A DNA stretch of 64,000 nt. It comes from Solibacillus sp. FSL H8-0523 (GTDB lineage: Bacteria > Bacillota > Bacilli > Bacillales_A > Planococcaceae). This document shows positions 23,876 to 59,688 of the stretch, in pieces; position 1 is the stretch's first letter; each line of letters starts with the position of its first letter. The position numbers and the translations under genes were made by a program. The notes under the pieces were generated by a model. It made no database searches and had not been told where the DNA came from. It saw nothing but the letters and a program-made list of their open reading frames with translations. The DNA lies in contig NZ_CP150291.1 in the NCBI RefSeq assembly GCF_038051985.1, positions 1,798,001 to 1,862,000 on the forward strand. The letters are read 5' to 3'.

Positions 23876-24412
23876 TTGAAAAGGGCAGTTTTTTTAGATC
23901 GAGATGGCGTAATAAATGAAGTGCTAACGGATCGAGTTAAATTTGTAAACGAACCGAATCAATTATATTTTTTACCTGGTGTAGAAGAAGCAATTAAAAG
24001 TTTAAATGAGTATTTTGATTATGTGTTTGTCGTAACAAATCAAGGTGGAATTGGATTAGGTTATATGAAGGAAAAGCAGTTACATAAAATTCATGACTAT
24101 ATGATCGTTGAACTGGAGAAAAAGGGAGCAACAATTCATGAGGTTGCCTATTGTCCGCATAAACCAAAGGCTAGATGTGCATGTAGAAAACCAAATAGCA
24201 AAATGATTTTAGATTTAGGCGAAAAATACAAAATTGATCTTGAAAAATCATATATGGTTGGAGATACGGATACGGATATTCAGGCAGGTAAAAAAGCAGG
24301 TACAAGAACCGTTTATATTGGCGAGAGTGATCCATTAGCAGATGCAGTGTGTCCAAATCTAAAAGAGGCAGCACAATGGATTATTCGTGATATTAAAAAT
24401 GATAAGAAATAA
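23876..24412 (+). CDS. GmhB-like HAD phosphatase (D,D-heptose 1,7-bisphosphate phosphatase family)
   Basis: 178 residues from the TTG at 23876 (AAAGGTG seven bases upstream); the longer frame has no start signal. HAD motif I FLDRDGVIN gives nucleophile Asp8 and general acid Asp10; VTNQGGIG is motif II and MVGDTDTDIQAG motif IV. The zinc-binding loop CPHKPKARCACRKP, characteristic of GmhB/histidinol-phosphatase-type members, is complete. In Bacillales it probably makes a heptose precursor for surface glycan or another sugar phosphate. A Lys-rich C-terminus is followed by a terminator-like hairpin. Confidence 0.9.
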   Translation: MKRAVFLDRDGVINEVLTDRVKFVNEPNQLYFLPGVEEAIKSLNEYFDYVFVVTNQGGIGLGYMKEKQLHKIHDYMIVELEKKGATIHEVAYCPHKPKARCACRKPNSKMILDLGEKYKIDLEKSYMVGDTDTDIQAGKKAGTRTVYIGESDPLADAVCPNLKEAAQWIIRDIKNDKK

Positions 24413-24442
24413 CCCACAGTATATTATCTATTGTGGGTTTTA
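24412..24442 (+). terminator. Terminator-like hairpin behind the HAD phosphatase gene
   Basis: ACCCACAGTA / TATTGTGGGTTTT directly behind the stop codon. It stands where other junctions carry the AACGTTGATAT hairpin, just left of a tRNA-Val fragment. Confidence 0.6.
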
Positions 24443-24458
24443 ATTGAGGTGTAATAAG

Positions 24459-24499
24459 TGTCCCAGCTGGTCTCGAATCAGCGACCTCCACCTTGTCGA
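24459..24499 (-). other. tRNA-Val 3' fragment (attachment-site footprint)
   Basis: Matches the 3' part of tRNA-Val: acceptor strand, T arm with a GCTGG/CCAG-type stem, variable loop and 3' half of the anticodon arm. It breaks off after CCACCTTGTCGA in the anticodon loop, exactly where the fragments at 42261-42302 and 49665-49706 end. This is the pattern left by tyrosine-integrase insertion into a tRNA gene. Confidence 0.8.
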
Positions 24500-24604
24500 T
24501 TTTGTTACGAAAATTAGAGCTTAAAATCAGATAATTGGCAAACCTCCTAGATTTTTTACATAAATAATGCACCATCACACATTCTATAAAGAGGAGGTGT
24601 GAAT

Positions 24605-24844
24605 ATGGGGAAGAAAGTTTCGAAGGCGAATCATGGAAAAACAGGAGTCGAACTAATAAGTGAAGCATTTGGCATGTCAAAAAACGATAGCGAAGCATTA
24701 TTAGCACAGGCGTCGGAAGTTCAAACTACCGATATTCCTTTAGGGAAAGATGATGTATACGCAAGGGATAGTACTACAACAACTTTGAACAACTTACATG
24801 AAGATAATACATCTGCCATTTTAGATCGAAATGGGCCGAGGTAA
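24605..24844 (+). CDS. Small hypothetical protein
   Basis: 79 residues from the ATG at 24605, with GAGGAGGTG upstream. It is hydrophilic, with a basic start (GKKVSKANHGKTGVELI), an acidic Thr-rich end (RDSTTTTLNNLHEDNTSAILDRNGPR) and no membrane segment. Its size and composition recall minor spore proteins, but I do not recognise a family. It begins about 100 bases right of the tRNA-Val fragment. Confidence 0.55.
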   Translation: MGKKVSKANHGKTGVELISEAFGMSKNDSEALLAQASEVQTTDIPLGKDDVYARDSTTTTLNNLHEDNTSAILDRNGPR

Positions 24845-24904
24845 TTATTAAGTGGATCAATTGTGATTTAAGGGCAATTCTTCCTTTAGAATAAGTAAAG
24901 CTTT

Positions 24905-25003
24905 ACAATACCTTAAATTGAGAGCTTGTGGAACTCATTCCAAAGGGAAAACCTGTAAACGTAGATATTCCAACGTTTACAGGCACTTTAAATGAGGGTC
25001 CCG
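24905..25003. repeat. Decayed tRNA-Val junction repeat with hairpin
   Basis: Contains the CCTGTAAACG..CGTTTACAGG hairpin (24952-24983) and then AATGAGGGTCCCG, the beginning of the tRNA-Val 3' end, before the similarity stops. It is a shorter, older copy of the junction seen at 42165-42302 and 49615-49706. Confidence 0.6.
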
Positions 25004-25190
25004 TAATGCGGACATATGAGTATAAAGGTGGTCTATATTAACCTTTGTCTGTCTGTCTTAAATTTTAAGGAATGCAAAAATGTAGAGCACTCTAAAAGAA
25101 ATGAAATAAAATCAATAAGTTTTTTCATCATCACATTAGCACATAAATCCACTTTTTTGTGGAAGGCTATTTTCATGTGGAGGTGTAGAA

Positions 25191-26543
25191 ATGGGAAAAA
25201 AAGCGTCGGGTGTTAAGGACGAAACAGCTAGCCTTCCATGGTGGCAATTATCCCTGATCGGGGTAGGTTGTATCATTGGTACAGGGTTTTTCCTGGCATC
25301 CAGTATTGCGATTAAAATGACAGGTCCATCTATAATCCTAGCCTTTATAATGGCGGCAACGGCAACGTATATCGTGTATGAAGCATTAGCTAAAATGTCT
25401 GTCAAAGATCCACAGAAAGGGTCTTTTCGGACGTATGCGAAAAAAGCGTATGGGCGTTGGGCTGGTTTTAGCAGTGGTTGGGTTTACTGGTGTTCAGAGA
25501 TATTAATTATTGGCAGTCAGCTTACTGCCATTTCGCTATTAACTAGGTTTTGGTTTCCTAACGTTAAGTTGTGGATATTCGCATCCATTTATGCAGTTCT
25601 CGGTCTCATTGTTCTGTTTATCGGGGCAAAAGCATTTGGAAAATTAGAAAGCGTATTTGCGGTCATGAAAATTGCTGCAATTTTGATGTTTATTGTAATT
25701 GCGATTTTAGCGCTGACGGGGGTAATTGGCGGGAATTCAAATGCTAACATGCCCGGGACTGTAAAGGGATTTTTCCCGAATGGTTTCATCGGATTTTGGA
25801 GCGCTCTTATATTCGCTTTTTATGCTCATGCTGGCATTGAAGTAATGGGCATCATGGCCATCCATCTTAAAAAGAAAGAGGATGCGCCTAAATCGGGTAA
25901 AGTTATGTTAGGCCTGCTTGGCATCATTTATGTTACCGCACTTTCGTTGGCGCTATTACTGAAGCCATACGATAAGTTCAAAGAAAACAAAAGCCCGTTT
26001 GTTGAGGCTTTATCAGGTATCCATAATATCGAATTTTTCCCGCATGTGTTTACTGCAGCCATTATTATTGCAGGGTTTTCAACGATGTCTGCATCCCTTT
26101 TTTCGGTTACCACAATCCTTGTAACAATATCTGAAGACGGGGACGCTCCGAAAATTTTTAGTCAACAAAAGAAAAAGAAATTCAAAATGCCACTACCTGC
26201 AATTATGTTAACAACAACGGGACTTGTCCTTTCGATTGTTACTTCTTTGTTATTGCCTGATAAAGTGTACGAATATATAACGACCGCTGCGGCCTTAATG
26301 CTTCTTTATAATTGGCTTTTTATTTTAGTCATGTATCACAGGCTAATTGAACCGACCACTTCAGATAAAGTAAAAAGAATTATTGGCATGATACTAGTCG
26401 TTTCAGCAGTTAGTGGAACACTCTTCCACCAAACAAGTCGTCCAGGCTTTTTTATCAGTCTAGTATTCCTGCGAGTAATCGGGAGTATAGTCTTTTTTAT
26501 GCGAAAAAAATGGGAGAAGGAAGAACCTCAAAATAACGCGTGA
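25191..26543 (+). CDS. Amino acid permease (APC superfamily)
   Basis: 450 residues, ATG at 25191 with TGGAGGTG upstream. Twelve hydrophobic segments; the first contains the substrate-binding IGVGCIIGTGFFLASSIAI, followed by GPSIILAFIMAATATYIVYEALAKM. Such a transporter imports amino acids by cation symport or exchange. The 3' end overlaps the convergent LysE-type exporter gene by 16 bases, an import/export pair facing each other. Confidence 0.9.
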   Translation: MGKKASGVKDETASLPWWQLSLIGVGCIIGTGFFLASSIAIKMTGPSIILAFIMAATATYIVYEALAKMSVKDPQKGSFRTYAKKAYGRWAGFSSGWVYWCSEILIIGSQLTAISLLTRFWFPNVKLWIFASIYAVLGLIVLFIGAKAFGKLESVFAVMKIAAILMFIVIAILALTGVIGGNSNANMPGTVKGFFPNGFIGFWSALIFAFYAHAGIEVMGIMAIHLKKKEDAPKSGKVMLGLLGIIYVTALSLALLLKPYDKFKENKSPFVEALSGIHNIEFFPHVFTAAIIIAGFSTMSASLFSVTTILVTISEDGDAPKIFSQQKKKKFKMPLPAIMLTTTGLVLSIVTSLLLPDKVYEYITTAAALMLLYNWLFILVMYHRLIEPTTSDKVKRIIGMILVVSAVSGTLFHQTSRPGFFISLVFLRVIGSIVFFMRKKWEKEEPQNNA

Positions 26544-27157
26544 TAAGCCTGAATTCCAAAATAAATACCGAACCCAATCATCGCAATGGATGAGATGACA
26601 GAAATAATTTTTAAAAATTTAGTTGATAATATCCTACGGGCGCCACCGGATAGAGTAGCCATGATTGTATCCCACAATAAAATTCCTAGGATGACGGCCA
26701 AGCTATTAATAATTATTTGGTTATCCGTACTTACTTTGTTTGTCTCGGCAAGAACGGACCCATAAATACCTAGCCAAAAAAGAATCGTAAGTGGGTTCAA
26801 TAGTGACACGAGAAAGCCTGATAGTAAGGAATGTCTTAGACGAATTGTTTTTTTGCCGGATTTTAAAGCGATCTCAATTTTATGTAGAGAAAGTAAATTC
26901 TCTATCCCGGAATATGTAAGAACAAAACAACCAAAGGACCAAAGAATTGTTTTTACAAGAGGATATTCGATAATTTGGCCAATCCCGAAATAAACCATAG
27001 TCATATAAATAATATCTGCTGTTAAAGCGCCAATACCAAAAAGAAAAGCATGAAAAAAACCGTTTTTAATCCCAGTATCTAGCTGCGCTGCGTTGACAGG
27101 ACCAATTGGCGCAGCCAAAGATACACCTAAAAAAATGTAAGCAGCTATTGAATTCAA
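26528..27157 (-). CDS. LysE-family amino acid exporter
   Basis: 209 residues from the TTG at 27157 with AGGGAGGG upstream; further upstream codons lack a start signal. Six hydrophobic segments, with FLGVSLAAPIGPVNAAQLDTG near the start and LNPLTILFWLGIYGSV in the middle, the conserved P-G-P and N-P motifs of LysE/RhtB exporters. It probably expels an amino acid or analogue. Confidence 0.9.
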   Translation of the reverse strand: MNSIAAYIFLGVSLAAPIGPVNAAQLDTGIKNGFFHAFLFGIGALTADIIYMTMVYFGIGQIIEYPLVKTILWSFGCFVLTYSGIENLLSLHKIEIALKSGKKTIRLRHSLLSGFLVSLLNPLTILFWLGIYGSVLAETNKVSTDNQIIINSLAVILGILLWDTIMATLSGGARRILSTKFLKIISVISSIAMIGFGIYFGIQAYHALF

Positions 27158-27398
27158 AAAATAGCCCTCCCTAAAATGATGTCTATGCATCTTATTCAAA
27201 GAGGATGACTCGTACAACTATAAAAAAAATTTCTACTAAAGACCGTCCGTTTTTTCTACACCTATTGTACCTCCGCTCTTTCCTACTATAGTATTTATTC
27301 TCTCCACAATTTATTGACTATTTCCTTATGTTTTATTAATTTCAAATAATTTATAATATTAAGACGTAATAAACAAGTTGAAAAAGGAGCTAAATGGA

Positions 27399-28232
27399 TT
27401 GAAACCGCTTCGCAATAATTTGTATGAAAAACTTCTTGTACAATGCAAGCCTCAACTCACTCTTGTTCTTATGATAACTTTATTATTTTTAGTAGCGTGT
27501 AACTCAGAAAATGACACAACAGCACCTGAAGAAAATAGCGAGCCAAACACTACTGAAACATTTACAGAAAACACCGAATCGACAAAGCCTACGAATGATG
27601 AAACATCAACCTCTTTTGAAACACCACAACAGTGTATCACGATTAAATTTGAAAAGGATGCTCTTATAAACGGCAATGAGCTCGCCCATTGTATGATGGC
27701 AACAATGCTGGCAGCGAAAACCGGATCACATTTTGCACAAACTTCTACCGCATCCACAAATGTCGACTTTAAATTTGACCCACAATATTCGATGTATGTG
27801 GAAAATGAAGACATGAGTATTATTATTCATGAAAATACAGGCTGGTTGAAACAGGAAGGGCAATGGATTGAAGAGGATGATACATCTGAAGATATGGATG
27901 TCATACTTGCAACAAATACAATCAAATTGACAAGAGTTTTTTCACATCCGTACATGATTACGCAATATTTAGCAGCTGTATCGCAATGGAAAGTGATAGA
28001 TTTCGGAGAAGTACCTGATAATAAGGCATTTGTAAAAACGGCTTGGCAGCTTGTCCCAGAAGGCCCTGTCAACTTAGAGGGTATGACACTTTCGGATGTT
28101 GAGCTATGGATTACTGATGAATATTTAGGTGCATATTACGTTTCTACTGGTAATATTGCAGGCATTACTGAAACAACCAGTAATACGTTCACACAATGGG
28201 GTGAGCCCATTACAATACCAGAGCCATTTTAA
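27399..28232 (+). CDS. Lipoprotein of unknown function
   Basis: 277 residues from the TTG at 27399 (AAAGGAG eight bases upstream). A signal sequence ends in the lipobox LFLVAC with Cys about 35 as lipid-attachment site. A Glu/Thr/Ser-rich linker follows, then a domain with NGNELAHCMMATMLAAKTGSH and MTLSDVELWITDEYLGAYYV. The latter resembles LolA/LppX-like or DUF-type substrate-carrying lipoproteins, but I cannot assign it. Own terminator downstream. Confidence 0.75.
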   Translation: MKPLRNNLYEKLLVQCKPQLTLVLMITLLFLVACNSENDTTAPEENSEPNTTETFTENTESTKPTNDETSTSFETPQQCITIKFEKDALINGNELAHCMMATMLAAKTGSHFAQTSTASTNVDFKFDPQYSMYVENEDMSIIIHENTGWLKQEGQWIEEDDTSEDMDVILATNTIKLTRVFSHPYMITQYLAAVSQWKVIDFGEVPDNKAFVKTAWQLVPEGPVNLEGMTLSDVELWITDEYLGAYYVSTGNIAGITETTSNTFTQWGEPITIPEPF

Positions 28233-28243
28233 TTCATAGTTTA

Positions 28244-28276
28244 GACCACTCACTATTCATTTTGAGTGGTTTTTCT
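28244..28276 (+). terminator. Terminator of the lipoprotein gene
   Basis: ACCACTCA / TGAGTGGT followed by TTTTTC. Confidence 0.8.
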
Positions 28277-28370
28277 TTGTATGGATTGTTCCTAAACAAG
28301 AAGAGTCCATAAGAATTTAATCCCAGACCAAAAAGCTAAAGCTAAAATATGCTAAAATAATCTCGTACAG

Positions 28371-29162
28371 ATGACAGAATTTTGGCGAATTGTCATAGTA
28401 AAACAAGAGAAATATTCACTTTCCCTTGAACAAGTAGAAAAACTTGCTAAGGAACAATTGAAGTTAGTTGAGTTTCCGGTCATTGAACAAAAAAAGCTCA
28501 TTCCTGCATTTGCAATTGAGGAGATTTATATTAAAAATAACGGTCTTTCTACCTTACCCTATGAATTCTTTGTAGATGATAAGTTTTCTCTGCAAATGGA
28601 CAAAGTGATAGAATGGGATGATCCTATTCAAGAAATTTTCCAAAGTAAAATAATAGCACTCATTGAAAATGTCACACCTGATCAAGCATTTCAGTGTGAA
28701 CCACATCCAGATTTACGGCCAATCACAGAGGAAGAAATTGAAATGTGTGTTCGCAACATTAAAGATTTTTTAAGTCAAGAATACACGAATGATTCTGGAA
28801 AGTGGGTATTAAAGACTCTATATCGAGACAAGGGATACATCCATGCAACATTAAAAGCAAATGAACAGAGAGAACGTGTATTTAAAAGAAAAATGAAACT
28901 ATTCATTGACTCAAAGACTTATCAAATATTAAATTACATGGATAATAAGCCGTTTTTAGAAATGTATATGGAATTAGAAGAAACAGAGGAAATAAAGGTT
29001 ACAAAAGAGGAAGCATTTGAAAAATTAAAAGACTTCATTGAATTAAAACCTTTTTATAAATATGATTTTAAGCAAGGTTACTATGTATTGTGTGGAAAGT
29101 TAGATTGTCAATATGCAGTAAAGGCGAATAAAGGGGAAGTTGTAGAATTAAATGAATTGTAA
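28371..29162 (+). CDS. Hypothetical protein with a YcdB-like C-terminus
   Basis: 263 residues from an ATG at 28371 that lacks a convincing ribosome site, so the start is uncertain. It has no signal peptide. The end VTKEEAFEKLKDFIELKPFY...YVLCGKLDCQY, then AVKANKGEVVEL, resembles YcdB/YcdC (PepSY-like) repeats also seen in the sigma-factor fusion at 11.6-13.5 kb. It may be a stand-alone relative or the 3' part of a once longer gene. Low certainty. Confidence 0.5.
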   Translation: MTEFWRIVIVKQEKYSLSLEQVEKLAKEQLKLVEFPVIEQKKLIPAFAIEEIYIKNNGLSTLPYEFFVDDKFSLQMDKVIEWDDPIQEIFQSKIIALIENVTPDQAFQCEPHPDLRPITEEEIEMCVRNIKDFLSQEYTNDSGKWVLKTLYRDKGYIHATLKANEQRERVFKRKMKLFIDSKTYQILNYMDNKPFLEMYMELEETEEIKVTKEEAFEKLKDFIELKPFYKYDFKQGYYVLCGKLDCQYAVKANKGEVVELNEL

Positions 29163-29259
29163 TTTTTAAGATGATGTTAGAAAAATCTAGGGATGTGCAA
29201 ATAAATAATCTGTTTGTGATAATATTAATAAGAAGAATTCTTTGTTTCAGGAGGGTTAT

Positions 29260-29541
29260 ATGAGCTTGATAGCACAACATCCTTATATAAAAATTGAAAG
29301 AAAAGTGACAGGTCTTGAACAGTATCAAATTGAGCTTAACCGAATCATTTATTTATATAAGGATAAAGTCATTACGCAGTATAGAGAGTTTCCGATTAAG
29401 GATGTAACGGATTTTTCTTATCGGGTAATTGCAAATGAAGGTGGTATTCTCTATTTACACACGATACAAGGTGTATTTCCGTATATCGTAAAATCTTCAC
29501 CAGAAGCTTTTATCACAGCATATAGAGCATATTTCAAGTGA
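29260..29541 (+). CDS. Small conserved-type hypothetical protein
   Basis: 93 residues from the ATG at 29260 (AGGAGGG upstream). The strand-rich sequence IELNRIIYLYKDKVITQYREFPIKDVTDFSYR with a closing helix PEAFITAYRAYF looks like a small bacterial PH-like domain. Function not recognised. It follows the YcdB-like gene by 97 bases. Confidence 0.65.
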   Translation: MSLIAQHPYIKIERKVTGLEQYQIELNRIIYLYKDKVITQYREFPIKDVTDFSYRVIANEGGILYLHTIQGVFPYIVKSSPEAFITAYRAYFK

Positions 29542-29643
29542 AGGCCGTATTAAGAAAAGCTTATAGCGTACTATTTGGAAATGTTTAGAATAATTTACTG
29601 TTGCACTTAAAAAAATAACAACTTTAGTTGAATAATGATTTTT

Positions 29644-29687
29644 AACAATCGGGTGCGATTCTGAAAAAGAATCAGCGCTCGTTTTCA
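29644..29687 (+). repeat. Dispersed hairpin repeat
   Basis: AACAATCGGGTGCGATTCTG / AAAGAATCAGCGCTCG plus T-run; related to 15727-15766, 46216-46253 and 62203-62247. It may terminate the preceding gene. Confidence 0.55.
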
Positions 29688-29761
29688 TTAAACGTCATAA
29701 TCTTGAATAACAGCATGTTTCTTAACAAAATAAAGCAGCATAATTTAATATGCTGCTTGCA

Positions 29762-30045
29762 CGTTATTTATCCGCTTTCAACTTCAACGCTCGAAGTAAT
29801 AGCACAATTGCATCTTGCTTTAAAGAACCGTCCTGTGAATATGGATCAATCGCAACATCTTTTGTGCGCGCTTCAAACCAAGTTGTGATCATCGGCTGTA
29901 GTGAAGGTTCGATATCTAATAACGTTGTTCAACGAGGACTCGAATTTTAATTCAAGCAGCTTTGCCCGTTTCGTTACGAGTGTTTCCACCGTAAAGGCAC
30001 CTGAGCGAAGCTGTACATGCGTATCTTCTAACTTCTATACTAGCT
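29762..30045 (-). pseudogene. Frameshifted 3' remnant of an unidentified gene
   Basis: On the minus strand one frame encodes LEDTHVQLRSGAFTVETLV, then TKRAKLLELKFES. After about 25 bases of mismatch another frame continues EPSLQPMITTWFEARTKDVA, then DPYSQDGSLKQDAIVLLLRAL, and a stop. Two consecutive protein-like stretches in different frames point to a decayed gene. The family is not recognised. Confidence 0.5.
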
Positions 30046-30053
30046 ACCAGATC

Positions 30054-30620
30054 CTATCTTGTAATATAACTTGTAGTTATACCAACAAAAAGTATTGTAA
30101 GAATAGAGAGTAAAAAAGTCTCGGAAGTTAGTAATAGACCCCCACATATAATCACAAAAGCATCAATGATTAAAATATAGATTCCTACATTTATGCCTGT
30201 TTTATCACATAAAAATTGGGCAATAAAATCTGTGCCGCCTGTACTTGTCTGAAATTTCAACATCAATCCAATCCCACTTCCTACTAAGATGCCACCTAGA
30301 ATCGAACTATATAATGCTTCAACTTCTAATAGACCACCAACAGGCCTTAGAAAATCAATTAAAAAAGAAGAAATCAACATCCCGTGTAAATTATTATAAA
30401 AATAATTTCTGTTATGAAACCATGCAAATATAAAGATAGGAATACTTAATAAGATAATGATTAATCCTGTATTTAAATCCCATATGTAATTTAATATTAA
30501 TCCGATACCAACTGTACCTCCATCTAATATCTCATGTGGTACTAAAAACAAATTTACGCCTAAAGATAGAAGAATGCTACCGAAAATGAGCGCAAAGCCT
30601 TTTTTTAGAAAGTACAGGGG
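30054..30620 (-). pseudogene. YitT-family membrane protein, truncated
   Basis: A DUF161/YitT-type membrane protein: LFLVPHEILDGGTVGIGLIL, FAWFHNRNYFYNNLHGMLISS, VEALYSSILGGILVGSGIGL, then FQTSTGGTDFIAQFL. The frame extends upstream to LYFLKKGFALIFGSILLSLG (about 30620) with no ATG, GTG or TTG start. It stops after LFVGITTSYITR, where relatives go on into the about 100-residue DUF2179 domain. The C-terminal break lies beside another gene remnant at 30.05 kb. Probably inactive, though a CTG or ATT start could make a short product. Confidence 0.7.
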
Positions 30621-30769
30621 ACCACCTCTTAATATTACTTTTTAAAAATACGTATAAATAACAAAGGTATTGTGAAATCTCAATAATAAATATATGTTCG
30701 TTATTCAATCTAAAGAAGAAAGGTCAGATACAATTTTTAAACAGAACCTGTATTACCTGTATTTTTCTT

Positions 30770-30867
30770 GCAGACAAATCTTAAAATTGAGGTGTAAAGT
30801 AGGAAGTCATCCCAAAAGAAAAACCTATAAACGCTGATATACCAACGTTTATAGGCGTTTTAATGCT
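30770..30867. repeat. Junction repeat with hairpin (tRNA part lost)
   Basis: Integrase-tail-like GCAGACAAATCTTAAAATTGAGG is followed by AGTAGGAAGTC.TCCCAAAAG and the hairpin CCTATAAACGCTGAT/ACCAACGTTTATAGG (30823-30855). The same order as at 42165-42302, but the tRNA-Val part is replaced by an SDR gene fragment. Confidence 0.65.
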
Positions 30868-31082
30868 AAGGATAAAGCTAAGTTTGCGACATCCATTGGA
30901 TCACCGATACGATCTAATAATTTGATATCTTTGTAAATATCGATTAAGGCTGCTAAAGCTTCTGGAGCATTGTTGATACGATTTTTTCGTAATACCATAC
31001 CAGGTGCACCACAATTTCAGATGAATCAAGCTACTCAACAGGTTCTGAATTTGTAATTGATGGCGGATTAACAGCCCAGTAA
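30863..31082. pseudogene. Rearranged remnant of a short-chain dehydrogenase gene
   Basis: Minus strand 31010-30863 encodes APGMVLRKNRINNAPEA...LLDRIGDPMDVANLALSLA. Plus strand 31013-31082 encodes SDESSYSTGSEFVIDGGLTAQ and a stop. In an intact SDR these two pieces follow each other in one frame, so the first has been inverted relative to the second. No active site remains. Confidence 0.75.
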
Positions 31083-31227
31083 TCTCAGTGATTTTCAGAA
31101 GATATTAATTATACCCTCGAAAAGTTGGTTTTTGGCGGGCTATTTATTGCATATAGTATGGAATAATTGAATATTCTCTCAACGTATCGGAAAAAATAGG
31201 AATAAAATACAGAGAAAGGAGAAATAA

Positions 31228-31587
31228 ATGAATTATTTTTCCGTTGTTTTATCTTGTCTTATTCTGATTCTTCTTACTGCGAGTCTCATGTACATTTTAG
31301 GTAGAAAAATTTCCTATAACTATATTTTATATAATGGACCTATTTCACTTGGGGTAGGGTTAATTTTTTTCTTAGGAAAAATAGTTTTCTTTGAGACCAG
31401 AAATACAATTGAAAGTGGTGCAGATATTGCAATTACATTAATTCTTCTATTTGTATGGTTAGTTGCACTTATTGAAACAATTGTCGTTGAAGTAATAGTG
31501 AATGGTAATGAAATTAAAACTTCAATAAGAAATATGCAAACTCAATTAAAAAGTTGGGACATTAAGAAAATAAAAGAAAGATTTTAA
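31228..31587 (+). CDS. Small membrane protein (YesK-like size and topology)
   Basis: 119 residues, ATG at 31228 with GAAAGGAG upstream. Three hydrophobic segments (about 4-24, 33-52, 67-90) and a charged C-terminal tail (NMQTQLKSWDIKKIKERF). No motif permits assignment. Confidence 0.7.
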   Translation: MNYFSVVLSCLILILLTASLMYILGRKISYNYILYNGPISLGVGLIFFLGKIVFFETRNTIESGADIAITLILLFVWLVALIETIVVEVIVNGNEIKTSIRNMQTQLKSWDIKKIKERF

Positions 31588-31765
31588 ATTATTTTTTAGT
31601 TGATGGAGTTCGTTATGGTGATTAGTGGATACCTTAAATAAGACTGCTTTTTGACAGACTTCTCGCTTTGAGTAAGTTGGCCTTTTTGAGCATATGCATC
31701 GCTACTATTCCAGAGATAATTTGTTTGTGCGGATTTCTCCTTTTTATATGGACCTTTTAATAAAG

Positions 31766-31801
31766 AAAACGGAAGTGAAAACGATCTCCACTTCCGTTTA
31801 A
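31766..31801. terminator. Terminator between convergent genes
   Basis: AAACGGAAGTG / CACTTCCGTTT around AAAACGATCTC, left of the SASP gene. Confidence 0.8.
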
Positions 31802-31846
31802 TTATTTATTTTTAATGTTGTCTAAATTCATTAATGGTCTTAATTG

Positions 31847-32050
31847 TTACTTTGACGTTTTTAATTGTTGTTGAGCCATTGCAACTAATCGTTTTGTGAT
31901 TTCTCCGCCAACAGAACCATTAGCTCTTGATGCTACTTCTCCATCAAGGTTTACTCCGAATTCCTGCGCAATTTCATATTTCATCTTGTCTACTGCTTGG
32001 CGAGCGCCGGGTACGTTTAATGGATTTGAATTATTGTTTGAATTACTCAT
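31847..32050 (-). CDS. Alpha/beta-type small acid-soluble spore protein (SASP)
   Basis: 67 residues from the ATG at 32050 (GGAGGAAT upstream). It has the two conserved family segments: [19 protein letters not shown], with the germination-protease cleavage region EIAxEFGV, and [20 protein letters not shown]. It coats DNA in the spore core and is degraded at germination. Direct evidence that the organism forms endospores. Expression in the forespore is expected from the family. Confidence 0.97.
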
Positions 32051-32219
32051 TGTGCATTCCTCCAATCAAGTTATCAGGTTTGTCGCCTGTGGAATTATTA
32101 TGAGAGTAAAGCTTTAAATTATTCGTAACAACAGAAAATAAATAAACTAAAAAAAGTGGTTCATTATTACCTGTATACAAATTCAAGAAGAATTCCTGAC
32201 ATAATAGCTTACCAGCTAC

Positions 32220-33393: not shown

Positions 33394-33645
<252 letters not shown>

Positions 33646-33658
33646 CAGTAATAAATAC

Positions 33659-52900: not shown

Positions 52901-54798
52901 ACTACAACTTCAAATGTGTAGCTTCCTGGACCTTGTGCTTCTGTTGGCGTCCATGTAAACACACCTGTCGTAGCGTTAATACTAGCTCCTGGCGGCTCAT
53001 CACCTAAGCTGTACGTCATCGTATTCGCTGGTAGATCTGCATCTGTTGCCGTTGCTGTAAACGTGAGCAGGGTTTCTTCGTCTACCATTTTGTCTCCAAT
53101 TGCAGCTAGTACCGGTGCTGTGTTCACTTCGTTAACCGTAACCGTGATTTCCTCTTCATCACTTAGCATTCCATCACTTACGACCACTTTAATTGTGAAG
53201 CTATCTGGACCTTGCGCTTCTGTTGGTGTCCATGTAAATACGCCCGTTGTTGCGTTGATACTTGCTCCTGTTGGCGCACCAACTAAGCTATACGTCAACG
53301 TATTCGCTGGCAGATCTGTATCTGGTGCAGACGCTGTAAACGTTAATTCGCTTCCTTCATCTACCGTTTTGTCGCTGATTGTTGCAAGCACTGGTGCAAC
53401 ATTCACTTCATTCACAGTAACCGTAATAGTTTCATCATCCGTCAACGTTCCGTCGCTTACTCGCACTATAAACGGATAAGTACCCGGACCTTGCGCTTCA
53501 CTTGGTATCCATGTGAATACACCCGTCGTGGCATTGATGCTAGCTCCTATTGGAGCTCCCACTAAGCTGTACGTCAAGATAGCTGAATCTGAATCAGTCG
53601 CTGTTGCCGTAAAGGTTAGCTGACTCCCCTCGTTCACTGTCTTATTACCGGTGGCACCAAGAAATGGGGCTGAATTAATCTCGTTAACCGTAATGGTAAT
53701 TTGCTCGCTGTCAATTTGTGTTCCATCACTTACGCGGATTGTAAACGCATAGCTTCCTGGACCTTGTGCTTCTGTTGGCGTCCATGTAAACACACCTGTC
53801 GTAGCGTTAATACTAGCTCCTGATGGCGCTCCTACTAGACTATACGTCAACGTATTCGGTGGCAGATCTGCATCTGTTGCTGTTGCTGTAAAGGTAAGAA
53901 AGATTTCTTCATTTATCGTTTTATTGCCAATCGCAGCTAGTAACGGTGCCTCATTTACCTCATTGACCGTAACCGTGATTTGTTCTTCGGCAGTTAATGC
54001 TCCATCACTTACTATTACTCTAATTGTAAAGCTACCTGGACCCTGCGCTTCCGTTGGCGTCCATGTGAATACACCCGTCGTTGAGTTAATACTTGCTCCT
54101 GTCGGAGCGTTACCCAAACTGTAGGTTAATGTATCTCCCTCCGCATCTGATGCTGTTGCAGTGAAAGTTAGCAAGTTTTTTTCGTTTACCGATTTAATGC
54201 CAATTCCATTCAAAACTGGCGCTGTGTTCACTGGCGCTGCAGCATAATTAATTTCAAGTCTAGGATTCAAAATTTCTGCATCGTATATTGAAGTTGTAGA
54301 CATTAATAACGAAATAATGCCATCAGCACCAATATTGCTGGATGTCATCAAGCTGCTCACGTTTATCCGGTATGTATTAATTTGTAAAGCCGGATTATAC
54401 GGAATAATACTGTAGAAAATACCCGGAACACTAGAATTAATCGATTTTTCTGGCGTAACTAGCGTTGGCATAACCGTTGCCGTTCCTGGCCAACTATCAT
54501 CTGTAATGGCAATTTTTAAATTTGAAATTGTAGTCCAATACCCCTCGAAGCTTTCAAAGGCAATGTATGATGAATCTATTGAACGAGCGCTATCAATTCC
54601 ATTAAACTTAAAAGTTGATTCTGAGTAATTATTAATAGTATCTCCTGCAATATAGCCAAAATCCAAAATTGTCCCATCAAAAGTATTTCTGCCATCTATC
54701 GGATTAAGCACTTGAGGAGCAGCAGCTATATGCGATGGAAATAAAGACAAAATTAGAACAATCGCTAAAAAAATATTAATACTAACTTTCTTTTTCAT
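49954..54798 (-). CDS. Giant surface protein: 13 cadherin/Ig-like repeats and three SLH domains
   Basis: 1614 residues; ATG preceded by GGAGGTG. Signal peptide about 1-27 (HIAAA), an N-terminal domain of about 165 residues with no clear family, then 13 tandem about 93-residue putative-Ig (He_PIG/cadherin-like) repeats, each with the pattern APVL..IG-K..NE...LTFTATATDAD, TYSL..AP.GASINATTGVF, WTPTEAQGPG and VSDG. A TP-dipeptide linker precedes three SLH domains (about 1440-1614: AAHWASDSIDAMVAQGVIVG, HAYYEAITAIQRAGIIDGI, HWSYVYITALAHAGIALGD). It is held at the cell wall by SLH domains; the repeats may form an adhesive stalk. Four repeats are near-identical at DNA level. Confidence 0.95.
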   Translation of the reverse strand: MKKKVSINIFLAIVLILSLFPSHIAAAPQVLNPIDGRNTFDGTILDFGYIAGDTINNYSESTFKFNGIDSARSIDSSYIAFESFEGYWTTISNLKIAITDDSWPGTATVMPTLVTPEKSINSSVPGIFYSIIPYNPALQINTYRINVSSLMTSSNIGADGIISLLMSTTSIYDAEILNPRLEINYAAAPVNTAPVLNGIGIKSVNEKNLLTFTATASDAEGDTLTYSLGNAPTGASINSTTGVFTWTPTEAQGPGSFTIRVIVSDGALTAEEQITVTVNEVNEAPLLAAIGNKTINEEIFLTFTATATDADLPPNTLTYSLVGAPSGASINATTGVFTWTPTEAQGPGSYAFTIRVSDGTQIDSEQITITVNEINSAPFLGATGNKTVNEGSQLTFTATATDSDSAILTYSLVGAPIGASINATTGVFTWIPSEAQGPGTYPFIVRVSDGTLTDDETITVTVNEVNVAPVLATISDKTVDEGSELTFTASAPDTDLPANTLTYSLVGAPTGASINATTGVFTWTPTEAQGPDSFTIKVVVSDGMLSDEEEITVTVNEVNTAPVLAAIGDKMVDEETLLTFTATATDADLPANTMTYSLGDEPPGASINATTGVFTWTPTEAQGPGSYTFEVVVSDGTQTDSEEITLTVNEVNEAPVLSAIGNKIINEGSELTFTATATDAYIPADTLTYSLVDAPSGASINATTGVFTWTPTEAQGPDSFTIKVVVSDGMLSDEEEITVTVNEVNTAPVLAAIGDKMVDEETLLTFTATATDADLPANTLTYSLGDEPPGASINATTGVFTWTPTEAQGPGSYTFEVVVSDGTQTDSEEITLTVKEVNEAPVLSAIGNKTINEGSELTFTATATDADLPANTLTYSLVDAPSGASINATTGVFTWAPTEAQGPGTYSFKVRVSDGSLTDEESIRVAVNEVNTAPVLSTIGDKTINEGSELTFTATATDADLPANTLTYSLVDAPSGASINATTGVFTWAPTEAQGPGTYSFKVRVSDGSLTDEESIRVAVNEVNTAPVLSTIGDKTINEGSELTFTATATDADLPANTLTYSLVDAPSGASINATTGVFTWAPTEAQGPGTYSFKVRVSDGSLTDEESIRVAVNEVNTAPVLSTIGDKTINEGSELTFTATATDADLPANTLTYSLVDAPSGASINATTGVFTWAPTEAQGPGTYSFKVRVSDGSLTDEESIRVAVNEVNTAPVLSTIGDKTINESSELTFTATATDADLPADTLTYSLVDAPSGASINATTGVFTWTPTEAQGPGTYSFEVRVSDGSLTDEESLMVTVNEVNTVPVLSAIGNKTINEGNELTFTVTATDADLPADTLTYSLVDAPSGASINATTGVFTWTPTELQGPGSYTFEVAVSDGTLTDIEEITLTVNEVNEAPVPEVRPTTPVEPEPTPVEPEPTPSGPTPTPTPTPTPTPTPTPTPKFSDTAAHWASDSIDAMVAQGVIVGFPDGTFRPNEPVSRKHIAIMLHRVLEFAPIRTVTTFGDVPENHAYYEAITAIQRAGIIDGIKGYYYPNEPMTRAQLAKILVLAFGLPLEGENPFSDISENHWSYVYITALAHAGIALGDNGQFNPNEPVTRAQFVAFLDRLINKEQ
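50470..50525 (-). repeat. Hexanucleotide microsatellite encoding the Thr-Pro linker
   Basis: Nine or so GGTGTT units on the plus strand encode repeated Thr-Pro in the linker before the SLH domains; linker length is likely variable. Confidence 0.85.
51142..52258 (-). repeat. Four near-identical 279-bp tandem repeats within the giant gene
   Basis: The landmark GCCGATTGTAGAAAGTACCGG recurs at 51142, 51421, 51700 and 51979, a period of 279 bases = 93 codons. The units differ at only a few positions, unlike the outer repeats, so they arose by recent amplification. Confidence 0.92.
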
Positions 54799-55109
54799 AA
54801 ATTAACGACACCTCCGCTCATTTTTTTAATTGTTCCACCGTTTAACTCAATCTCACTTCCAATTTCAATGCCATCCTCATCCAACATTCCTTTCTCTACT
54901 GTATATTGAAAGAAAAGCTGCTCTGTACCGTAGCCACCTAAGTAAGTAACTTTTACAGTCGTATTTCCGATGCTCAGCGTTAGTTGAGGGTTGTCCATTA
55001 CGTGGACTGGTGGTGTTTGTACCGTTCCGTAAAGGCTGCCGAAGATGGTTTGGACCATCAGCAAACAAATCACGAGCACTTATAGTTTTGAGTAAAATGA
55101 CTTCTCCAT
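54795..55109 (-). pseudogene. Small secreted protein gene with an in-frame stop at codon 10
   Basis: ATG at 55109, with AAAGGAGAG upstream, begins MEKSFYSKL and hits TAA at 55082-55080. The same frame continues VLVICLLMVQTIFGSLYG (signal peptide-like) and a beta-rich domain to 54795, overlapping the giant gene's ATG by four bases. A GTG at 55079 could restart a 94-residue product, but lacks its own ribosome site. Either a nonsense mutation in the first gene of the surface-protein operon or reinitiation. Confidence 0.65.
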
Positions 55110-55592
55110 ATTTTCTCTCCTTTCTACAATCAAGCTAGATTTCTACAGTTTCTACCAATTTAAGAATAAATCAATAAGGTTAAAATAAGGTTAAAAAATT
55201 TAAAGTTAGAAAAAAGGGAAAATATATCTAAGATTTCAATGAAATATCCTCAACATGTATTTGTCACTCTTGATATCAAGGGTTTTCTAAAATATATCTA
55301 TTCCTATAACGAAACTACAGCGAGTTTATTCGGTAAAGTAAAAGTAGTAGCTCTTGATTTTTTTCGGTAATGTGAACATAAAAAACTGCTGATTTTTTTT
55401 AGGTTAAGTAATCGCTAATAACTCGCTGCCATTATAAAAGTTTAAGCGAGTGGTCAGAATGAGTAAAATTCTCCTTTTAATTTTAGTTTAGTAAAACAAT
55501 ATTTTCGCTACCCACTACCCTTAACAACACAATAATTGTATAATATATACATTTATTAGTAAATATGGTATATTAGGAAAGAGGTGTTTAGA

Positions 55593-56600
55593 TTGAGATT
55601 ACTATTTAGTGTATTAAGAAAAATACTCGAGAAAGAGTCTTTTTCACACAAAACATACAATATTGATGAACGTGAGTTTCGGGATTTTCTGAATATGGTT
55701 ATAAAAAAAGATTATATTTCTATCCTCAGAATTCGGAATGAAAATACATATGCTCTTACAGAAAAAGGATTAGAGTTCCTTAATTCTAATATGAAATTTA
55801 ATAAGGAGGTTCCAAATAATCCTGAAGAACTGCCTCAATGGGTCCGATTTGAAGGGGAAATTTATTCACCAAAACACAAAAAATCAGAGCCATATCAGAA
55901 TAAGGACGAATCAGAAATTATCGAATATTTTCAATGGAATGAAATTCTAAATTCAACACTCAAATCTATTGAAAACAAGGGCGGCATAGGGGGGCTATTT
56001 ATTGGTCAACCTGCATCAGCAAGTGAAGTGATGCACATTGAAAGCATTATTGGATTTGGACTTCCAGAATCCTTTAAAAAGGTAGTAATAGATTATTCGC
56101 GTCAATGTGATTTTTATTGGAATACACAAGAACATTCAACATGTGTGTTGGATGATCCTAATATCTATTCAGCACAAGGCAAACCATATAAGAACAGGAA
56201 TATATTGAATGGGGGCCTATTTGATTTAGGGTTATGGAATCTAGATAAGATAATTCATTTAAACGCCATAAGGATAGACCATGATTACCTTGATGAAGAG
56301 AATGAAGAATTTCATTTTTGGTCAAATTCATTTATTTTTTCCGGAGATGGAATGGGAAATTACTTTGGAATAGATCGAAAGTACAACATAGGGGAAGTTA
56401 TATATTTAACAAATGATAAAGAGTTTCACGGGTGGAGGCTAGGAAAATCATTTGAATCTTTTATGAACAACTGGGTCCAAATAGGTTGTGCTGGTGGTTT
56501 TATCAGTGATTTTATTGCGCTATCTTCACAACAAATCCCTTATATTAACAGTATGACTACAAATTCTCTCAAAATAAAGAAATGGCTAGAAATTACTTAG
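55593..56600 (+). CDS. SMI1/KNR4 (SUKH) family protein with an N-terminal winged-helix-like part
   Basis: About 335 residues from the TTG at 55593 (AAAGAGG upstream); a GTG nine bases earlier overlaps the ribosome site. Residues about 1-75 look like a small winged helix (IRNENTYALTEKGLEFLN). The C-terminal half has the SUKH pattern: ASASEVMHIESIIGFGLPES, FKKVVIDYSRQCDFYWN, FSGDGMGNYFGID and EVIYLTNDKEFHGWRL. SUKH proteins are typically immunity factors against contact-dependent nuclease toxins. No toxin gene lies beside it. A promoter-like TATAAT-type stretch precedes it near 55545-55560. Confidence 0.75.
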   Translation: MRLLFSVLRKILEKESFSHKTYNIDEREFRDFLNMVIKKDYISILRIRNENTYALTEKGLEFLNSNMKFNKEVPNNPEELPQWVRFEGEIYSPKHKKSEPYQNKDESEIIEYFQWNEILNSTLKSIENKGGIGGLFIGQPASASEVMHIESIIGFGLPESFKKVVIDYSRQCDFYWNTQEHSTCVLDDPNIYSAQGKPYKNRNILNGGLFDLGLWNLDKIIHLNAIRIDHDYLDEENEEFHFWSNSFIFSGDGMGNYFGIDRKYNIGEVIYLTNDKEFHGWRLGKSFESFMNNWVQIGCAGGFISDFIALSSQQIPYINSMTTNSLKIKKWLEIT

Positions 56601-56737
56601 TAGGCCTCATCAGCCTTCGTTACTCTACAATCGAAAAGAATACTTAGTAAAATAAGGCTTTACGAGGTGCTTTTGCTCAAACTTTATTTCAAAGAAAGTA
56701 ATCATAAAATTTTCATTCTTTTTAATAAAACGGAAGT

Positions 56738-56830
56738 AAGCCCGAAATATAAAAAAGGCGTACCTTTACGGTACGCACGACGAATGGCCAGCTAGCTGAA
56801 TTTTTTTCGGCTAGCTAGCTATTTTGCACA
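56738..56830. repeat. Two-hairpin repeat element, copy B
   Basis: CCGAAATATAAAAAAGGCG with hairpin 1 (GCGTACC/GGTACGC), then hairpin 2 (AGCTAGCTG / CGGCTAGCT around AATTTTTTT) and ATTTTGCACA. Compared with copy A (41741-41832), the hairpin 2 stem has changed on both sides and still pairs. Confidence 0.75.
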
Positions 56831-56871
56831 TGTGGCTTGAATAGTCTCTGACCACGGCAGGTAGGTTGCTG

Positions 56872-57152
56872 GTGCTGGATTTGAAGAATATTATCGTTTA
56901 CTTAATACTTACGATAGAACATTTATTTTTCCAAGTGATTTAGCTAGTTACTTTAGAATAATGACGACAACTATGAAAGAAGCGAGCGAAAGAAATTTAA
57001 TTACGGCTGAAGAAATTATTGAACGCATATCAAGTTTCATTATGGACCGAGTAGACCCATGTTGGGGAGCAGATCAACTTAGGGAACTTATAATTTTCTT
57101 ATCAAAAACTTATAGAGAAAAGGTGAAGCTACTATGCATATTCGTTCAATGA
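56872..57152 (+). pseudogene. 5'-truncated gene remnant
   Basis: The frame GAGFEEYYRLLNTYDRTFIF, then PSDLASYFRIMTTTMKEASE and a helical tail ends at 57152, overlapping the GNAT start. There is no start signal at its left edge, which degenerates toward the two-hairpin repeat. Unidentified; the only alternative is a short 63-residue gene from the ATG at 56961, without a ribosome site. Confidence 0.4.
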
Positions 57153-57571
57153 TTAGAAATGATATTAATAATATGGATGTTTTAATGAATCAGTTAGGTT
57201 ATCCTTCTTCAAATCAAAAAATTCAAGAAAGATTGGATAAAATCTTGGATTTACCAAATTACGAAACGTTTGTTGCTGAAATAAACGGAGATTTAGTTGG
57301 CTTTGTAGGAATGTGTAAGCAAATCGCATATGAATTTGATGAGCCGTATGTAAGAGTTTTAGCACTAGTAGTTCACGAGGATTATCGTAGAAAAAATATT
57401 GGGCAAAACCTTATGTTAGCAGTTGAAGATTGGGCGAAAAAGAACGATTGTATAGCTATCACATTAAACAGCGGGAATAGAGAAGAACGAATCGCTGCAC
57501 ATAATTTTTATAAAAATTTAGGATACAAAGGGAAGAGTACAGGTTTCAGTAAAAGTTTAAGCAATAATTAA
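57134..57571 (+). CDS. GNAT acetyltransferase
   Basis: 145 residues, ATG at 57134 with AAAAGGTG upstream. MHIRSMIRNDINNMDVLMNQ opens a minimal GNAT of the aminoglycoside-6'-acetyltransferase-like class. VRVLALVVHEDYRRKNIGQN (about 75-94) is the acetyl-CoA loop and EERIAAHNFYKNLGYKGKS the closing part. It may be cargo of the tRNA-Val element. The substrate is unknown. Confidence 0.9.
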   Translation: MHIRSMIRNDINNMDVLMNQLGYPSSNQKIQERLDKILDLPNYETFVAEINGDLVGFVGMCKQIAYEFDEPYVRVLALVVHEDYRRKNIGQNLMLAVEDWAKKNDCIAITLNSGNREERIAAHNFYKNLGYKGKSTGFSKSLSNN

Positions 57572-57600
57572 AATTCAATATACGAGCCTATACAAAATAA

Positions 57601-57673
57601 CGTTCCCAAATCAAAGTTTGGGAAGAAACGAAAAGGGCAGAAACGTTGTTTTAACAACGTTTCTGCCTTTTCT
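57601..57673 (+). terminator. Two consecutive terminator-like hairpins
   Basis: TTCCCAAA/TTTGGGAA (57604-57623) is followed by AAAAGGGCAGAAACGTTGTT / AACAACGTTTCTGCCTTTT (57631-57672). The second resembles the hairpin at 21253-21292. Confidence 0.8.
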
Positions 57674-57938
57674 ATTGGTCCATTGTTTTTGCTTTTTTTT
57701 ATACACTTTTACTAAAAGTCAGTGTTAAAAAAGGTTTGAGTATGTTTTTGGGAAGGCTGCGTCCTTGGTTTTCTTGCATAAAATGATGCATATCCTTACC
57801 GTTGTAAATCTTGATTTAGAACCGGTTAGGTGAGATGTTTATTTTAGAATCCGGCAATAACTTTGTGGTCCCGACTACCGGTATCTTTAGCATTAATTAC
57901 TCTATCAAAAAAAATTTTAAAAAATATATAATAAGTAC

Positions 57939-58066
57939 TTAGAATATGAAAAGTAATAAGGTATAATCTTTTCAAATTAAATATTAAATCCCATTATAAG
58001 CGAAAACCGTAGGGAATATAACCACTTCATTTTATGTTGATGGTTATGTTCATCTGCGGTTTTTTC
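57939..58066 (+). promoter_or_regulatory. Promoter and attenuator-like leader of xis-int
   Basis: A TATAAT box at 57962-57967 has a weak -35 TTAGAA 17 bases upstream. The transcript then forms a long hairpin 58003-58066: AAAACCG pairs with CGGTTTT at the base and ATAACCA with TGGTTAT inside, ending in TTTTTTC. The excisionase ribosome site AAAGGAG follows at once. This could attenuate element excision; alternatively it terminates an upstream transcript. Confidence 0.5.
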
Positions 58067-58093
58067 TTTTTCGAAAGGAGTGACATATAAACA

Positions 58094-58291
58094 ATGCATA
58101 AAAGTCTTGAAGATTATCCAGTGATTTTAACTGCTGAACATATAGCCGAAATTTTGATGGTTTCCAAACCAACGGCCTATGAATTGATGGAACAGACTTC
58201 ATTTCCATTGATTCGAATTGGTCGTAGTAAACGAGTTTTAAAAGATAAATTTTTTAATTGGCTTTCACAGCAGCAGGCGTGTGGCTTATAG
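58094..58291 (+). CDS. xis: Excisionase-type helix-turn-helix protein
   Basis: 65 residues, ATG at 58094 with AAAGGAGTG upstream. A single MerR-like helix-turn-helix of the excisionase/HTH_17 family: LTAEHIAEILMVSKPTAYEL, then LIRIGRSKRVLKDKFFNWL. Its position directly before the integrase and its size fit a recombination directionality factor that bends attachment-site DNA. Confidence 0.88.
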   Translation: MHKSLEDYPVILTAEHIAEILMVSKPTAYELMEQTSFPLIRIGRSKRVLKDKFFNWLSQQQACGL

Positions 58292-58376
58292 AACAGGAAG
58301 TAAGTGGTCAAAATGAAAGTAGATCACTTGCTTACCTTTATTAATAGACAAGATTAAATGGAGGTTAGCAATAATA

Positions 58377-59510
58377 ATGAAAGGCAGTGTAAAAAAGAGA
58401 GGAAATGCCTATCGATATATAGTGGATATTGGGCGAGATCCTTTAACGGGAAAACGTAAACAATTAACCAAAGGTGGTTTTAAACGGAAAAAAGATGCAG
58501 AAGCAGCTTTGAACGAAGTGCTTAATGAAGTTCATACTCAAGGTTATGTAGTACCTAGTCAAGAAGTTTTTTCTTCCTTCATTGAGAATTGGTTTACAAC
58601 GCACTTGGAAAAACGAATTAAAGAAACAACGGCATCTAATGCTAAATCTCTTATCGATAAACATTTAATAAGAGAGAATCCATTTGGGGATAAACCTTTA
58701 TCAAAAATTACGACAGAAGATATTGATGCTTTTTATAACCTTAAAATTGATGAAGGGTATAGTTCAAGTTATATTCGTAAAATGCATCAAACCCTAAATC
58801 AAGCATTCAATCAAGCGGTAAAATGGAAACGTATTAAATATAATCCAGTTACTGATGCGGATCCACCGGCAGTGAAAAAAGAAGAGATGAAAATTTGGTC
58901 TTATGATGAAATCAATGCGTTTCTTGAACATTGTAAGGGAGAAAGACATTATTTAACTTTCTTTCTTGCCATTTATACGGGAATGAGACGAGGCGAGATA
59001 TTAGGGTTGAACTGGAGCGATATTGATTTTGCCAATAAAACAATTCGTATTCAACGTTCGTTAGCGTATATTCCAAAAAAAGGTTACGTTTTAACGTCTA
59101 CTAAGACTCTAAAATCAAAACGAATCGTACCAATATCGGATATGGTTGTGAACGAATTAATTAAATATCGCGCACAACAAGAAATTTGGAAAGAGCAACT
59201 TGGTGAACTTTATCAGGATGAGGATTTTGTGATTTGTACGGAAACAGGGTCAAAGCAAGACCCGCGAAATGTGTTACGAGCGTTGAAGAGATTGATTACA
59301 TCTTCTAAAGTAACCTCTATTCGATTCCACGATTTTCGTCACACACATGCATCCATTTTAATTTCTAGTGGTGTCGATGTTGTAAAGGTATCAAAACGTT
59401 TAGGTCATGCGAATGCGAAAATCACATTAGAAACATATGCTCATCTCGTTCCAAATGAAGACAATGATTTAGCAGATATTTTTGAAAAAGCACTGGAAAA
59501 AAATCTGTGA
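58377..59510 (+). CDS. int: Tyrosine integrase of the tRNA-Val element
   Basis: 377 residues, ATG at 58377 (GGAGGT upstream). Arm-binding domain about 1-50 (KRGNAYRYIVDIGRDPLTGK), core-binding domain about 60-160, catalytic domain with Arg204 (TGMRRGE), His318 and Arg321 (HDFRHTH), His344 (LGHANAKIT) and Tyr354 (ETYAHL). The catalytic set is complete and the length is standard for Bacillales ICE/phage integrases. The stop lies about 105 bases from the 3' end of tRNA-Val, the usual place for an integrase that targets that tRNA. Confidence 0.97.
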   Translation: MKGSVKKRGNAYRYIVDIGRDPLTGKRKQLTKGGFKRKKDAEAALNEVLNEVHTQGYVVPSQEVFSSFIENWFTTHLEKRIKETTASNAKSLIDKHLIRENPFGDKPLSKITTEDIDAFYNLKIDEGYSSSYIRKMHQTLNQAFNQAVKWKRIKYNPVTDADPPAVKKEEMKIWSYDEINAFLEHCKGERHYLTFFLAIYTGMRRGEILGLNWSDIDFANKTIRIQRSLAYIPKKGYVLTSTKTLKSKRIVPISDMVVNELIKYRAQQEIWKEQLGELYQDEDFVICTETGSKQDPRNVLRALKRLITSSKVTSIRFHDFRHTHASILISSGVDVVKVSKRLGHANAKITLETYAHLVPNEDNDLADIFEKALEKNL

Positions 59511-59570
59511 CCAATCCGTGACCATTGACCAAAAAATCGAGTTTTTGCACAAGGATTATCTAAAAAAAAC

Positions 59571-59604
59571 CCTACAAACGTTGATATATCAACGTTTGTA
59601 GGGT
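59571..59604. terminator. Hairpin between integrase and tRNA-Val
   Basis: CCCTACAAACGTTGATAT/ATCAACGTTTGTAGGG, a perfect palindrome. It serves as terminator for both tRNA-Val (minus) and int (plus). Variants occur at 24952, 30823, 42216 and 49621. Confidence 0.88.
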
Positions 59605-59615
59605 GATTTATAAGA

Positions 59616-59688
59616 TGGTCCCGACAAGTCTCGAACTTGCGACCCCCACCTTGTCGAGGTGGTGCTCTCCCAACTGAGCTACAAGACC
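59616..59688 (-). tRNA. tRNA-Val (GAC)
   Basis: Cloverleaf on the minus strand: acceptor GGTCTTG/CGGGACC, D arm GCTCAGTTGGGAGAGC, anticodon arm CCACC-TCGACAA-GGTGG with GAC at 34-36, T arm GCAAG-TTCGAGA-CTTGT. Position 33 reads C, not the near-universal T. The acceptor has two G-T pairs. CCA is not encoded. It is the only complete member of the tRNA-Val series in the window and carries the integrase at its 3' side. Confidence 0.88.

Follow-up and report, generated by a model that had tools for sequence, protein, structure and literature searches.

Islands that use tRNA genes as insertion sites have been described before. The Islander collection, in the excerpted text of PMC4383910, takes a displaced 3' fragment of the tRNA gene (tDNA) to mark the far end of an island that restores the gene; that text reports 125 tandems with at least two members and 4 with at least three, among 3919 islands, and places 2083 of the entries counted at anticodon-centred sites. 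Tandems at one tRNA gene are also known among actinomycete integrative and conjugative elements (AICEs), at a Frankia tRNA-Lys and a Streptomyces tRNA-Arg gene; the parts of PMC3218068 available to us document excision of the Frankia tandem and describe AICEs as carriers of tra and rep. The available portion of PMC8371274 presents the anticodon loop as a 7-bp overlap for SSV1 and classical bacterial recombinases and mentions tandem integration at one locus; that of PMC13239906 describes an element that occupies a site other than a tRNA gene in the related Lysinibacillus. Here we analyze a 64,000-nucleotide stretch of Solibacillus sp. FSL H8-0523 (the window; positions 1798001-1862000 of a single-contig genome of 4.14 Mb), in which tyrosine-integrase islands have very probably been inserted serially into a single tRNA-Val gene with anticodon GAC, forming a tandem accretion array. 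Among the papers listed by searches of the open-licence literature, none was on this Solibacillus site.

As far as the Islander excerpt goes, its islands and the Solibacillus array share a tyrosine integrase, a restored tRNA gene and a displaced fragment at the far end. An Islander tandem as defined there has an integrase and a fragment for each island, whereas the array has one intact integrase, one remnant and three fragments. In the AICE tandems, as far as the text available shows, neighbouring elements at a single tRNA gene likewise have integrases that are either related or different; they carry tra and rep, unlike the array, in which no such genes were recognized. The 7-nt loop and flanking stem of the array fit the overlap and core-site plan outlined in the accessible part of PMC8371274, where the cuts were measured, whereas here we infer them. 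The mechanism is already known; it is the depth and legibility of the array that are unusual. The closest named process is reportedly the growth of island regions by insertion beside resident elements together with deletion, from which the array differs in that no conjugation gene was recognized in it. The features that carry the argument are the following.

59614-59689, minus strand: intact tRNA-Val (anticodon GAC), the target gene (ARAGORN, which placed one tRNA-Val(GAC); Rfam RF00005)
49665-49706: displaced tRNA-Val 3' half, part of right-end scar 49596-49706
42261-42302: displaced tRNA-Val 3' half, part of right-end scar 42116-42302
24459-24499, minus strand: displaced tRNA-Val 3' half, the most decayed of the three (profile match)
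49707-59657, plus strand: presumed youngest segment, 9.95 kb, between a displaced half and the intact tRNA gene
58377-59510, plus strand: intact tyrosine integrase, 377 aa, with Phage_integrase, SAM-like and Arm-DNA-bind_4 domains (Pfam, PHROGs)
59507-59524, plus strand: direct repeat, GTGACCA twice, at the integrase stop, type 2
59571-59602: hairpin, AACGTTGATATATCAACGTT palindrome, between integrase and tRNA gene
41840-42145, plus strand: C-terminal remnant of a type-1 integrase (tblastn, 115 residues at 80% identity, gapped)

The three displaced halves recorded by the first-pass annotation are real: each ends in TTGTCGA, the 5' edge of the anticodon loop, and all are collinear with the intact gene and in its orientation, as in an island. 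Compared with the nearest of six intact-type 42-nt variants, the halves at 24459, 42261 and 49665 have 6, 3 and 0 mismatches, respectively. The two covarying T-stem types noted earlier were found again, the four halves reading CTGG, CAAG, CTGG and CAAG from left to right, and a third type, CAGG/CCTG, is present in two genomes of the genus (G005 and G007). On the reading of serial insertion the 3' half of the gene has switched T-stem type three times and that of the intact gene is element-derived. The short end ACCTTGTCGA alone is unremarkable, with 12 exact genome matches against 18 for a backward control.

To search for element ends we used a right-end profile of 11 junction sequences and a left-end profile of 5, all from other genomes, none of the former from the window's genome. 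Region 1738001-1880000 of that genome was scanned with both (nhmmer), and reversed sequences gave zero matches up to E 0.01. The scars obtained, in window coordinates and all on the plus strand, were as follows.

49596-49706: right-end scar left by an older element, with hairpin and displaced half; integrase lost (117.5 bits, E 3.8e-34)
48620-48724: left-end scar, second arm with GGACAAAT repeats, tRNA half absent (83.2 bits; repeat at genome position 1846659)
42291-42365: weak left-end similarity immediately right of the displaced half (21.0 bits, E 9.8e-5)
42116-42302: right-end scar, integrase tail, hairpin and displaced half (153.0 bits, E 5e-45)
30768-30863: right-end scar, integrase tail and hairpin, tRNA half lost (63.8 bits)
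25006-25059: short left-end scar (21.6 bits, E 6.7e-5)
24906-25003: right-end scar, hairpin plus a short piece of the tRNA acceptor end (53.0 bits; sequence)
10492-10577: weak right-end scar, integrase tail (31.7 bits, E 6.7e-8)
1-102 (-6 to 102): left-end scar at the window edge, starting 6 bases outside, with GCGGACAA repeats (77.0 bits)

The right-end profile also matched the most decayed half (24431-24499; 32.6 bits, E 3.5e-8), so that the significance of all three fragments is upheld independently, as well as 59464-59657 and, weakly, 9586-9700; its remaining weak matches, mostly on the minus strand, correspond to the palindromic hairpin. A left-end match of 39.7 bits lies about 27 kb left of the window. 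Five right ends to the right of 24459 imply at least five insertions if none was duplicated, and further element ends lie to its left. The first-pass annotation had proposed nested segments of about 18, 7.4 and 10 kb. The last of these stands, at 9.95 kb; the arrangement is tandem rather than nested, and the 18 kb and 7.4 kb segments are composite because further element ends lie inside both.

Alignment of the junctions revealed a shared attP plan: integrase stop, direct repeats, hairpin, tRNA 3' half and a core ending in TTGTCGA, often followed by ATTTATC and, in type-1 elements, by the same repeats about 125 bp further on. The hairpin, probably a terminator by its appearance, recurs at 42217-42248 and 49621-49652, that is, at three of the four junctions as first described, with two additional copies near 24952 and 30824 that had been missed. 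Integrase sequence does stand left of two junctions: the intact gene lies inside the last segment and adjoins the restored tRNA gene, and the remnant aligns with residues 263-377 of a relative's integrase. No integrase was detected at 49.7, 30.8 and 24.9 kb. Type-1 direct repeats are TGCGGACAAATTGCGGACAAA and type-2 repeats are pairs of GTGAGCA or GTGACCA; the intact integrase of the window belongs to type 2, and its GTGACCA pair is a probable arm-type site. A second arm with the same repeats was seen in one of the two element types, type 1 (G003, G006 and G008, with G009 mixed), and no type-2 second arm was found in any region searched. Three of the four segments that could be typed at both ends agree (G003 28787-35920, G006 18978-38014 and the last of G008). 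A role of the repeats as integrase arm sites would fit the Arm-DNA-bind_4 domain. Allowing one mismatch, the repeat GCGGACAAATTGCGGACAAA occurs at 21 places in 16 genomes: 17 share a contig with the tRNA gene and lie no more than 71 kb from it, on the island side, 3 are on other G001 contigs and 1 is in G013. With up to three mismatches the arm-repeat search of the 16 genomes gave 29 places, against 4 for a backward control.

Four things can be read directly from the sequence: the breakpoint is shared, the element ends keep a fixed order and orientation, relatives have the same junctions, and the tRNA 3' half changes allele. We propose that each island would bring its own tRNA 3' half and hairpin, to be joined to the resident 5' half, while the previous 3' half would be displaced to the far end of the newcomer. 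Cleavage would border the 7-nt anticodon loop, with the crossover in the loop itself; on this model the last crossover is confined to about 20 bp between T stem and loop edge, because the 49665 half and the intact gene carry different T-stem alleles. The youngest island would then lie beside the tRNA gene (49707-59657, with the intact integrase), and older ones, reduced by deletions, would follow to the left. Such an order in time, oldest farthest away, fits the decay of 6, 3 and 0 changes per 42 nt from far to near; the state of the integrases fits it in part, being intact at the tRNA gene, a remnant at 42 kb and undetected at the other junctions. The last island might still be able to excise.

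Comparison with the genus (16 genomes, the window's genome and 15 relatives) gives this scheme good support, through the relatives' junctions and displaced halves. Between 31.7 and 79.8 kb were read per genome, and the counts of displaced halves depend on that extent. Seventeen displaced halves in 11 genomes, 10 of the 16 in the genus and a Psychrobacillus, stand beside 17 intact copies: G000 3, G001 1, G003 2, G004 1, G005 2 (decayed), G006 1, G008 2, G009 1, G013 1, G015 1 (decayed) and P. psychrotolerans L064 2. The halves of G001 and G013 come from separate stretches located through the repeat, and a degenerate half at G003 14466 was left out. The exact TTGTCGA end is found in 15 of the 17, and a search of both strands returned 24 tRNA-end matches in 15 of the 16 regions, all oriented as the tRNA gene. 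In 11 junctions from 9 genomes, a right and a left element end come together at a single half. An M48 protease gene lies within 3 kb of tRNA-Val(GAC) in 14 of the 15 relatives. The arrangement that would have spoken against the first-pass annotation, the same genes in fixed order without association with the tRNA gene, was not seen in the 15 relatives.

Related integrases were also sought in named genomes, where 10 of 21 loci were examined. They lie directly beside tRNA-Val(GAC) in P. insolitus (85% identity), C. oceanisediminis (58%) and A. filiformis (37%), representing the genera Psychrobacillus, Cytobacillus and Alkalibacillus, and beside tRNA-Arg in S. massiliensis and V. senegalensis (35-36%). 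In P. psychrotolerans an integrase remnant lies within a tandem; two other loci are Solibacillus records and two were without a tRNA gene found.

Several observations weigh against serial insertion or fit it poorly. Within the window, no left-end profile match follows 49706 or 24499, the 24459 half lacks an integrase tail or hairpin on its left, and the sequence after the three fragments does not resemble ATTTATC, the usual continuation, which was found at 10 of 17. No second arm was seen for the last segment, in which the GTGACCA pair occurs once, and G009 55214-57882 combines a type-1 left arm with a type-2 integrase remnant. In G013 the tRNA gene does not adjoin the M48 gene. The island side of the tRNA gene differs in every relative, and the ancestral neighbours are located elsewhere in the window's genome. 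No clean example of the empty site predicted from the first reading was found among the 15 relatives.

In G013 (L087, 2271000-2290900) the distance between the M48 gene and a displaced half with unchanged core is about 183 kb, and the roughly 38 kb adjoining M48 contain no tRNA-Val; the locus is rearranged. Five genomes were considered as uninvaded (G007, G010, G011, G012 and G014). The AACGTTG hairpin is absent beside their tRNA gene, and a search with seven integrases found no match next to it; G010 has an integrase piece about 3.8 kb away. We did not call them empty, since in four of them (G007, G011, G012 and G014) a common tail containing CGTCACACATCCGTCACG-like repeats adjoins the tRNA gene, and these four may carry an older element type. 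Nor could the ancestral flank be rebuilt from three island-flank genes of G015, which are dispersed or only distantly matched in the window's genome: at 88% identity the sensor kinase maps to 2.40 Mb and, at 81%, the catalase maps to 1.54 Mb, while all homologues of the dehydrogenase are distant, the best by E-value being 34% identical.

Could one or two insertions have sufficed, with later duplications and deletions inside the array multiplying the scars? Deletion is evident in the partnerless ends at 30768, 48620 and 24906, and block order has changed relative to G009. However, the four tRNA halves alternate in T-stem type, the integrase tails are of two types and the cargo between scars is unrepeated in the window beyond short stretches; we regard this history as distinctly improbable. 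Homologous recombination between tRNA loci could in principle copy halves and flanks without an integrase, tRNA genes being repeated sequences and other tRNA-Val genes being present in the genome, but it is made very improbable by the shared breakpoint, by the integrase or integrase tail next to the half and, in relatives, by repeats flanking it on either side. That a tRNA half plus hairpin forms a small self-spreading repeat element is scarcely credible: similar AACGTTG palindromes, probably terminators, are indeed present at other places in the genus where no tRNA sequence accompanies them, but off-locus matches in the window's genome are tRNA-like or bare palindrome, the halves at the locus accompany element ends in fixed order, and at the search thresholds used no clean-ended half plus hairpin was seen far from tRNA-Val.

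A further, unlikely reading treats the array as a shared docking bay in which two integrase kinds use one core with different arm repeats, the resident intact integrase moving segments that lack their own, and cassette-like blocks being exchanged between species. Hints in its favour are unchanged cores on both sides of segments that have no intact integrase (G003, G008), reordered blocks whose similarity between species exceeds that of the flank (G009) and, weakly, an integrase arm domain 49% identical between the window and G001, against 61% and 66%. The Cytobacillus integrase, on the other side, shows almost no arm contrast (56, 56 and 60%), and the integrase remnants suggest decay rather than designed loss.

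Under serial insertion, the scars allow invasions of a single gene to be placed in relative order throughout the genus, and both element ends are readable in several genomes. They suggest that the tRNA-Val 3' half has been replaced more than once by versions from mobile DNA; T-stem variation would therefore follow invasion history and not descent alone. Should the last element still be able to excise, the use of one core by two kinds of integrase would open arm-site specificity to direct testing.

The 24.5-59.6 kb interval holds 26 open reading frames (ORFs). By Pfam the cargo includes an amino acid permease, a LysE exporter, YitT, two ABC exporters, NHL and FecR proteins, a peptidase M1 domain, a sigma-70 region 4 protein and GNAT. 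Relaxase, conjugation and replication genes were not found among the 26 with Pfam, 10 of which had no Pfam match, and phage structural, packaging and lysis genes were found neither there nor in 10 of the 26 with PHROGs; on these searches the array qualifies neither as an integrative and conjugative or mobilizable element nor as a prophage. A defence search of 10 proteins (PADLOC) matched only the ABC ATPase at 43102, with ATPase-type models. Blocks 24524-24930, 31038-32166, 33906-37435 and 37696-41736 are 90-96% identical in G009, in a different order, against 82% for the flank 59370-61468 (integrase end through tRNA to M48 gene); in G003, 27267-28283 is 93.5% identical against 83% for the flank. 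Cargo more alike than the flank points to transfer between species after their split.

Free forms of the elements were sought in viral and plasmid records. The core CCACCTTGTCGAATTTATC is in no IMG/VR contig, and the arm 20-mer GCGGACAAATTGCGGACAAA is in five. One of these (L095, IMGVR_UViG_3300021255_001005) has the exact repeat twice, 209 bp apart, around a tRNA-end-like stretch and directly following a distant integrase (about 22% identical); from its sequence, an unrelated element may share the arm motif. The repeat as a general viral motif was unconvincing (28 stretches with period 11, 16 with period 12, 5 in the backward control). Integrase relatives in viral contigs are 25-32% identical and those in phage and plasmid records all below 60%. 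No plasmid or phage record covers 80% of the junction and, among the matches listed, only the stretch around the tRNA gene matched.

Further observations concern individual genes and repeats. Between two scars, 24524-24930 holds an 81-aa gene of unknown family, which is placed elsewhere in G005, G009, G010, G011 and G015 (87-94% DNA identity). The gene at 49954-54798 encodes a protein of 1614 aa that combines S-layer homology domains with numerous Ig-like repeats, and contains 13 copies of a unit of about 279 bp coding for it. At 46931-47741 a short sigma-70 region 4 ORF (Pfam), apparently cut at its start, precedes a possible anti-sigma factor (both by eye). A hairpin-rich repeat at 41754-41809, ending just left of the integrase remnant, and at 56752-56807 (82% identical) is also present in G009 and G011. 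Three T-box leaders lie at 3239-3472, 16075-16285 and 23505-23713.

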